From Alicyclobacillus contaminans DSM 17975 (GTDB lineage Bacteria > Bacillota > Bacilli > Alicyclobacillales > Alicyclobacillaceae), in the NCBI RefSeq assembly GCF_000429525.1, contig NZ_AUCA01000009.1, positions 1-64,000 of the forward strand: a stretch of DNA of 64,000 nucleotides, in the 5' to 3' direction. How positions within the stretch are numbered: the first letter of the stretch is position 1; every line of letters starts with the position of its first letter. The notes beneath the pieces are model-generated. The model did no database searches. It saw only the letters and a program-made list of their open reading frames with translations, and was not told where the DNA came from. The translations under genes were made by a program, and so were the position numbers. Shown piece after piece: positions 35,077-38,523 of the stretch.

Positions 35077-35115
35077 CGGGACAGAATTGTATCCGTCGGG
35101 ACGAAATAAGTCCCG
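35077..35115 (+). promoter_or_regulatory. CggR operator, tandem CGGGAC sites
   Basis: CGGGAC at 35077-35082 and again at 35097-35102, 20 nt apart. Each is followed after 6 nt by a degenerate TGTC-like half (GTAT, AGTC). This reproduces the spacing of the B. subtilis CggR operator (CGGGAC-N6-TGTC-N4, twice). The 3' unit is also a palindrome, CGGGAC...GTCCCG (35097-35115). It lies between the promoter and cggR, so CggR binding would block elongation or initiation. Fructose-1,6-bisphosphate is the known inducer. Confidence 0.85.
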
Positions 35116-35171: not shown

Positions 35172-37230
<2,059 letters not shown>

Positions 37231-37239
37231 CAATTTACA

Positions 37240-37257
37240 GGGACTGATTTCGTCCCG
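37240..37257. promoter_or_regulatory. Second CggR-like site between gapA and pgk
   Basis: GGGACTGATTTCGTCCCG is, on the reverse strand, CGGGACGAAATCAGTCCC. This equals the 3' unit of the cggR operator (35097-35114) with one mismatch in 18. Only a single unit is present; no second CGGGAC lies 20 nt away. It sits 5-8 nt upstream of an extended -10 element, where a bound repressor would block RNA polymerase. Confidence 0.6.
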
Positions 37258-37261
37258 GTTG

Positions 37262-37270
37262 TGTTACAAT
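37262..37270 (+). promoter_or_regulatory. Extended -10 element before pgk
   Basis: TGTTACAAT: TG-n followed by TACAAT (37265-37270). The -35 position is poor. It may be an internal promoter for pgk-tpiA-gpmI-eno. Confidence 0.5.
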
Positions 37271-37281
37271 GCATTTCGGCG

Positions 37282-37312
37282 GGGAGAATGAATGGGCTCA
37301 TTCTCCCTTTTT
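37282..37312 (+). terminator. Terminator-like hairpin between gapA and pgk
   Basis: GGGAGAATGA (37282-37291) pairs perfectly with TCATTCTCCC (37298-37307) and is followed by five T. It looks like an intrinsic terminator or attenuator inside the glycolytic operon. It could lower pgk and later genes relative to gapA or form a protective 5' stem for transcripts from the internal promoter. Confidence 0.8.
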
Positions 37313-37341: not shown

Positions 37342-38523
37342 ATGGACAAGAAGACGATTCGCGACGTGGCGTGGCAGGGGCAACGGGCGTTGGTTCGTGT
37401 GGACTTCAACGTGCCAATGCAGGACGGTGCCATCACGGATGATACCCGCATGCGCGCAGCGCTGCCGACCATTACATATCTCTTGGACAACGGTGCGAAA
37501 GTGGTGTTGATGAGCCACCTTGGACGTCCGAAGGGGGAGCGAACCCTCAAGTATTCTCTGGCGCCGGTGGCGGAACACCTGCGGACGCTGCTGCCCGGAC
37601 GCGAGGTCCGGTTTGCCGAGGACTGCATCGGGGCACCCGCCCAAACGGTGGTGTCCGACCTTCCGTCGGGAGCCGTGGCAGTGCTGGAAAACCTGCGTTT
37701 TCACCCGGAAGAGGAACAGAACGATCCGCATTTCGCCGAGCAGCTCAGCGCGCTTGGCGATGTGTATGTGAACGACGCCTTCGGGGCGGCGCACCGCGCT
37801 CACGCCTCCACCGCAGGCGTGGCGAAGTATCTGCCAGCGGTGGCGGGTTTTCTGATGGAAAAGGAAATTGACGTGATGGGGCGCGCGCTGGAGTCGCCCG
37901 AACGGCCGTTTGTGGCCATCATCGGCGGCGCCAAGGTATCGGACAAGATTCAGGTCATGGAAAACCTGCTGCCGAAGGTGGATGCGCTCCTGATTGGGGG
38001 CGGTATGGCCAACACGTTCCTCGCCGTGCAGGGGTATGAACTGGGCACCTCGCTGGTCGAGGAATCGGCCAAGGAATTGGCGAAACGGCTGCTGTCCGGA
38101 TCGTACGCCAGCAAGCTGAAACTCCCGACCGACGTGGTGGCGGCCACGGCATTTGCGAAGGACGCGGAGCACGACGTGTACCCTGTGTCGGCCATTCCAG
38201 CGGACCGCATGGCGCTGGACATCGGGCCTGAGACGGTGAAACAGTACCAGTCCCTGATTCGCGGCGCGAACACGGTCATTTGGAACGGCCCCATGGGCGT
38301 GTTCGAGATGGCCCCCTTTGCGAAGGGGACGTTTGCCATTGCGGAAGCCATGGCGGAAGTGGCAGGCACGACCATCGTCGGGGGCGGCGACTCCGTTGCG
38401 GCGGTGGAGCAGTCGGGATTGGCGCAGAAAATGACGCATGTCTCCACCGGCGGCGGTGCATCGTTGGAGTTCCTCGAGGGCAAACCGCTGCCCGGTGTGA
38501 CCGCGTTGCAGGATCGCGCGTGA
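37342..38523 (+). CDS. pgk: Phosphoglycerate kinase
   Basis: A 393-aa kinase making ATP from 1,3-bisphosphoglycerate. ATG 37342, 8 nt after AAGGGGG, is preferred over upstream in-frame codons. Signature [15 protein letters not shown] lies at residues 14-28, SHLGRPKGE near 60, the substrate-site segment [12 protein letters not shown] near 155, and the nucleotide loop [13 protein letters not shown] near 310, followed by [13 protein letters not shown]. Length is normal (about 394). tpiA follows after 63 nt. Confidence 0.96.

Follow-up and report, generated by a model that had tools for sequence, protein, structure and literature searches.

The window, a stretch of 64,000 nucleotides from Alicyclobacillus contaminans DSM 17975, carries on its forward strand the genes cggR (35172–36230), gapA (36208–37230) and pgk (37342–38523), the last of which is the first gene of pgk-tpiA-gpmI-eno. 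The cggR product is a SorC/CggR-type repressor (PDB 8r3g, E 2.5e-81; DNA-binding domain 7oyk, E 1.5e-17), and gapA encodes a type I GAPDH. In genera g5 and g13, no pgk was detected in the stretch examined downstream of cggR-gapA, and the operon is therefore split there. In the window, gapA starts within the 3′ end of cggR (36208–36230, an overlap of 23 nt). In B. subtilis, an RNase Y processing region lies close to the end of cggR; the corresponding region of the window would need to be different.

Upstream of cggR, the forward strand contains a tandem operator at 35077–35114, CGGGACAGAATTGTATCC-GT-CGGGACGAAATAAGTCCC, in which the O_L unit (35077–35094) begins 20 bp before the O_R unit (35097–35114; 26.8 bits), the register observed in the B. 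subtilis operator and in family members. The operator occupies about +30 to +67 with respect to its own -10-derived start. The B. subtilis operator is likewise a tandem downstream of a start, at +32 to +77, and is bound by a CggR tetramer, with an affinity for O_R that is 100-fold above that for O_L; residues R37, R38, R49 and R52 of the repressor read the guanines of GGGAC (PMC11229326). Alignment to PDB 8r3g and 7oyk shows that these guanine-contacting residues correspond to R38, R39, R50 and R53 of the encoded CggR, all four of which are invariant in seven aligned CggR sequences of the family. The genome yielded no second protein with a DNA-binding domain of the CggR type; the other SorC-like match covers residues 99–342 only, that is, the effector domain. 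The spacing of the cggR operator in the window is exactly the GGGAC-(27)-GTCCC layout given for the cggR-gap operon of Caldicellulosiruptor in the available part of PMC8579813, a text that describes CggR sites for that operon only and mentions no internal or pfkA site. In one relative, G015, two CggR-type tandems apparently flank the -10 upstream of cggR, one on either side.

A second, single unit of this type, CGGGACGAAATCAGTCCC, is present on the reverse strand between gapA and pgk, at 37240–37257. It agrees with O_R at 17 of 18 positions, and this match, claimed earlier in a sequence-only reading of the DNA, is exact in both sequence and coordinates. The placement "on its reverse strand" in that reading is also exact but is not a strong statement because the motif is a near-palindrome that can equally be read on the forward strand, as AGGGACTGATTTCGTCCC, with a score of 21.7 bits. 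CGGGACGAAATCAGTCCC contains the CGGGAC-N7-GTCCC core with an AT-rich centre that is used to recognize O_R-type units. No partner unit was seen 20 bp away, the canonical register, to either side of 37240–37257, and the site is thus single rather than tandem.

The site is rare in the genome. Within the 3.27 Mb, only the O_R of cggR and 37240–37257 are found at one mismatch or fewer from O_R, and only three sites are found at three mismatches or fewer: the O_R of cggR, 37240–37257 (one mismatch) and a site that precedes pfkA (three mismatches). A weight matrix of 18 columns was built from 44 distinct O_R units upstream of cggR in the family and order, with the sites of the gapA-pgk spacers excluded. 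On this matrix, 37240–37257 scores 24.2 bits, compared to a median of 22.7 and a minimum of 13.1 bits for the training set. A simulated 3.27-Mb genome (Markov, with the dinucleotide content of the window) contains one position of at least 18 bits and none of at least 20, and none of 500 shuffles of the spacer equals the score of the site. The match to the operator is thus unlikely to be due to chance. Other candidates were set aside: a 12.9-bit match at 36007 is in a coding stretch inside cggR and has a score that is reached tens of times in a random genome, and the other GGGAC-N7-GTCCC sites of the genome (on contigs C5, C8 and C16) are inside or downstream of genes and are regarded as background.

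The gapA-pgk spacer of the sister species G001, the only other congener compared, contains GGGACGCGTTGTGTCCC (18.6 bits). As seen in an alignment, the two spacers share AGGGAC, GTCCCG, TGTGTTACAAT, GGGGAGAATGA and CATTCTCCC, with divergence in the N7 core and in the flanks; the N7 spacing is kept, and the distance from the operator to TGTGTTACAAT is identical in both species. Fourfold-degenerate sites of the flanking genes are about 45% (gapA) and about 44% (pgk) identical between the two. Fixed arms and spacing with a free core is the pattern that an operator would be expected to give, with conservation at the genus level resting on two species. The sequence-only reading had named loss of the palindrome in close relatives as the outcome that would speak against it. 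The comparison gave the opposite, because the palindrome is kept in G001, at the same distance from the extended -10, while its core and flanks have diverged.

Among gapA-pgk spacers longer than 40 bp, high scores are found in the window (24.2 bits), G015 (20.8 bits), G001 (18.6 bits) and G021 (18.1 bits), each unmatched in 500 shuffles, and the remaining spacers of the family and order score at most 7.5 bits, resulting in a bimodal distribution. No clear CggR unit was observed in the gapA-pgk spacers examined outside the family, the best of which, at 12.6 bits, is under the training minimum. In G015, two CggR-like units are located upstream of TACAAT; in G021, CGGGATGGAATTCGTCCCG is located just downstream of TACAAT. 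A tree of cggR, gapA and pgk places the window's genus, G015 and G021 on separate branches, and G008, the sister of G021, is without a CggR site between gapA and pgk. The carriers do not form one clade and separate gains of the site are likely, the deep branches of this tree being poorly supported. This patchy distribution bears on the idea that the site is a chance match or a decaying, functionless copy of an operator. Most family members are without the site, and the genomes of the near sister group, g11, contain in the same position a degraded look-alike, CGAGATGAAAATCATCCC (7.5 bits), possibly the remnant of an operator, ahead of TGTGTTACGAT. The shuffles and the simulated genome speak against a functionless site, as do the arms, which are intact in both congeners despite near-saturated neutral divergence, and this explanation is considered very unlikely.

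Directly downstream of the site, at 37262–37270 of the forward strand, is TGTTACAAT, an extended -10 element (TG-T-TACAAT) of a putative internal pgk promoter, as the sequence-only reading had stated. This sequence occurs twice in the window compared to 0.14 occurrences expected, is the same in the sister species, and has its counterpart in a -10-like hexamer before the hairpin described below in most family members. No recognisable -35 is seen for the putative promoter; the operator unit sits in that place. The transcription start is predicted, from the -10, at 37277. Although the earlier reading was correct about both the operator and the -10, it missed an 11-bp perfect hairpin followed by T5 at 37281–37312 of the same strand (-16.8 kcal/mol, z -3.65). 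This hairpin, the GGGGAGAATG..CATTCTCCCCTTTT stem of which is conserved in the family, begins about 4 nt past the predicted start, spanning about +5 to +36, and with its GC-rich stem and subsequent T run it is a predicted intrinsic terminator. It could serve as the terminator of gapA, as a 5′ hairpin in the mRNA of pgk, or in both roles.

In many spacers of the family, and in most of those with the hairpin, a TG-extended -10 (TACAAT, TAAAAT or TAAACT) ends 7–12 nt before the hairpin, and in Geobacillus, Anoxybacillus and Sutcliffiella, TATAAT is followed by a similar stem. The -10 and the hairpin thus appear to be an old pair, to which the CggR unit was apparently added later in a few lineages. 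Over all Bacilli, the value for a -10 before the gapA-pgk hairpin is 47%, compared to a mean of 45% for the null given by composition shuffles of each spacer, a difference that is not significant; it is therefore the conserved position of the -10 in the family, not composition, that supports the promoter. A promoter just before a terminator-like hairpin is an odd arrangement, and in many Bacilli the hairpin is found about 10 nt past the -10. Since the hairpin directly follows the -10, the output of the putative promoter into pgk is uncertain; the hairpin and T5 could terminate most transcripts.

Another reading is that the palindrome at 37240–37257 is itself an RNA hairpin of the gapA 3′ region, with a role in stability or termination, rather than a DNA operator. 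The site can fold as a 5-bp stem of -8.0 kcal/mol, and a terminator scan flags the palindrome with a loose T tail. A much better hairpin with T5 is available 24 nt downstream, however, and what is kept between the species is the letters GGGAC/GTCCC and their spacing, not merely the pairing, with no compensatory changes seen. The sequence is, moreover, that of a cggR operator unit, and an Rfam search gave no match. An RNA role for the palindrome is judged highly improbable.

The best explanation of the locus, and one that is fairly probable, is that 37240–37257 is a lone CggR half-site of the high-affinity O_R type that overlaps the -35/spacer region of a promoter internal to the operon, ahead of pgk, and represses this promoter at low fructose-1,6-bisphosphate. 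A CggR dimer occupying about -37 to -20 would mask the -35/spacer of an extended -10 promoter that has no recognisable -35, excluding RNA polymerase. This would be simple occlusion, unlike the situation at the cggR operator, which is downstream of its start. At low fructose-1,6-bisphosphate, the cggR-gapA promoter and the internal pgk promoter would both close, and at high fructose-1,6-bisphosphate both would open, such that transcription of pgk-tpiA-gpmI-eno from the internal promoter would fall together with that from the cggR-gapA promoter. Whereas an unregulated pgk promoter leaves pgk-eno available for gluconeogenesis elsewhere, here pgk-eno would drop with gapA, at least partly. The drop may be only partial, a lone unit presumably being a weaker binding site than a tandem. 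We infer binding by CggR, promoter activity, repression as the direction of the effect and the response to sugar phosphate from the sequence.

An alternative that uses the same protein at the same site is a roadblock, in which the bound CggR dimer would stop polymerases coming from gapA and, together with the hairpin and T5, uncouple gapA from pgk, the -10-like element being weak or inactive. The cggR operators of both B. subtilis (PMC11229326) and the window are downstream of a start, the G021 site is downstream of TACAAT, and the terminator-like hairpin directly follows the -10. The distance between the site and the -10 is fixed in the genus, however, and the G015 units are upstream of the -10, both of which point to a promoter. 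In addition, a second block on read-through adds little because the upstream promoter is already off under repression. A roadblock is judged unlikely.

Occlusion of the pgk promoter by a lone half-site has in its favour the match, its rarity in the genome, the conservation in the sister species, the bimodal spacer scores, the arginines and the presence of CggR-type operators at other glycolytic genes. Against it count that the site has one unit, in contrast to the tetramer-bound tandem known for CggR (PMC11229326), that most family members lack a site at this position, and that the -10 is supported by conservation only. The idea that the internal promoter is separately repressed by CggR, put forward in the sequence-only reading, has gained from the palindrome kept in the sister, the similar sites in two other lineages and the four retained arginines, but it assumes that a lone half-site suffices, and the hairpin leaves the pgk output uncertain. 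The 100-fold difference in affinity between O_R and O_L in B. subtilis (PMC11229326) helps the notion of a lone half-site, although it is not proof. A CggR-repressed internal pgk promoter is a plausible interpretation that is now better supported, but it is incomplete.

In B. subtilis, an internal promoter in the same position between gapA and pgk reportedly drives pgk-eno and is said to be constitutive, whereas that of the window carries a putative CggR unit. The site in the window and the operator of the B. subtilis gapA operon have in common the recognition unit, CGGGAC-N6/7-GTCC(C), the cognate repressor family and the operon, and the upstream cggR operator of the window also shares the tandem layout and register of the B. 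subtilis O_L/O_R. The main differences are that 37240–37257 has only one unit, of the O_R type, that it lies within the operon, about 2.1 kb further downstream, and that it overlaps the -35/spacer of a putative internal promoter instead of following a start.

CggR is the textbook example of a one-operator glycolytic repressor in Bacillus subtilis. A single DNA target was reported for the B. subtilis protein (Doan and Aymerich 2003, cited in PMC2311275). The view of a single upstream operator, which the sequence-only reading had carried over, is too narrow for the present lineage, in which pfkA-pyk also has a CggR-type tandem. A genome search for GGGAC-N7-GTCCC located GGGACTTTTTTTGTCCC-TGA-GGGACAGGATT between accA and pfkA-pyk, both in the window's genome (contig C20, 15091–15115, reverse strand, 20-bp register) and in G001, and the tandem before pfkA(-pyk) recurs in pattern searches across the family. 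With the weight matrix, a unit of at least 13 bits was detected within 350 bp upstream of pfkA for 29 of the 40 family genomes examined; the corresponding figures are 11 of 13 for the order's second family and 5 of 12 for other Bacilli families. The distance to a second unit on the same strand, where one is detectable, is almost always 20 bp, the same as at cggR. A second pfkA-like gene in the window's genome, 69% identical (contig C1, 128867–129823), is without an upstream CggR unit. Judging mainly from titles and abstracts and from PMC6079084, no CggR control of pfkA is apparent in the papers surveyed that name both.

Further CggR-type tandems precede a second copy of gapA in G035 (contig C270, 3619–3654) and, in G001, an aldehyde dehydrogenase gene, which lies 35 bp downstream of a tandem in a 19-bp register (contig C24, 196237–196271). 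The encoded enzyme resembles lactaldehyde dehydrogenase or archaeal gapN; it meets no NCBIfam cut-off, and its identification as gapN was not adopted. No operator is present upstream of the relative of this gene in G007, and a search of the window's genome for a gene of the G001 type gave none at the threshold applied. Tandem matches inside tpiA of two g13 genomes were rejected as a coding coincidence, their codons spelling the conserved G-T-K-F-V-L-A-G-H.

Since tandems precede pfkA(-pyk) here and in most relatives, it seems normal for CggR to have several targets in this lineage, and this single regulator probably governs a larger share of sugar breakdown than it does in B. subtilis. In a broader reading, for which the balance is about even, CggR of the Alicyclobacillaceae and some Bacilli is a multi-operon regulator of glycolysis, acting on cggR-gapA, pfkA-pyk and, in places, gapA-pgk, a second gapA and an aldehyde dehydrogenase gene, and in the window's genus it would also use a lone half-site to close the internal promoter of pgk. 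This broader set of targets is probably a more useful outcome than the pgk site. The lone O_R unit at a promoter provides a natural system in which to ask whether CggR can, as a dimer and without the tetramer, repress and still respond to fructose-1,6-bisphosphate. If the proposals are true, the reversible enzymes pgk-eno, needed by gluconeogenesis, would be under the same sugar-phosphate switch as gapA, CggR would in some lineages link pfkA and pyk, the committing steps, with the triose section of glycolysis, and the CggR regulon would have expanded or shrunk during evolution.
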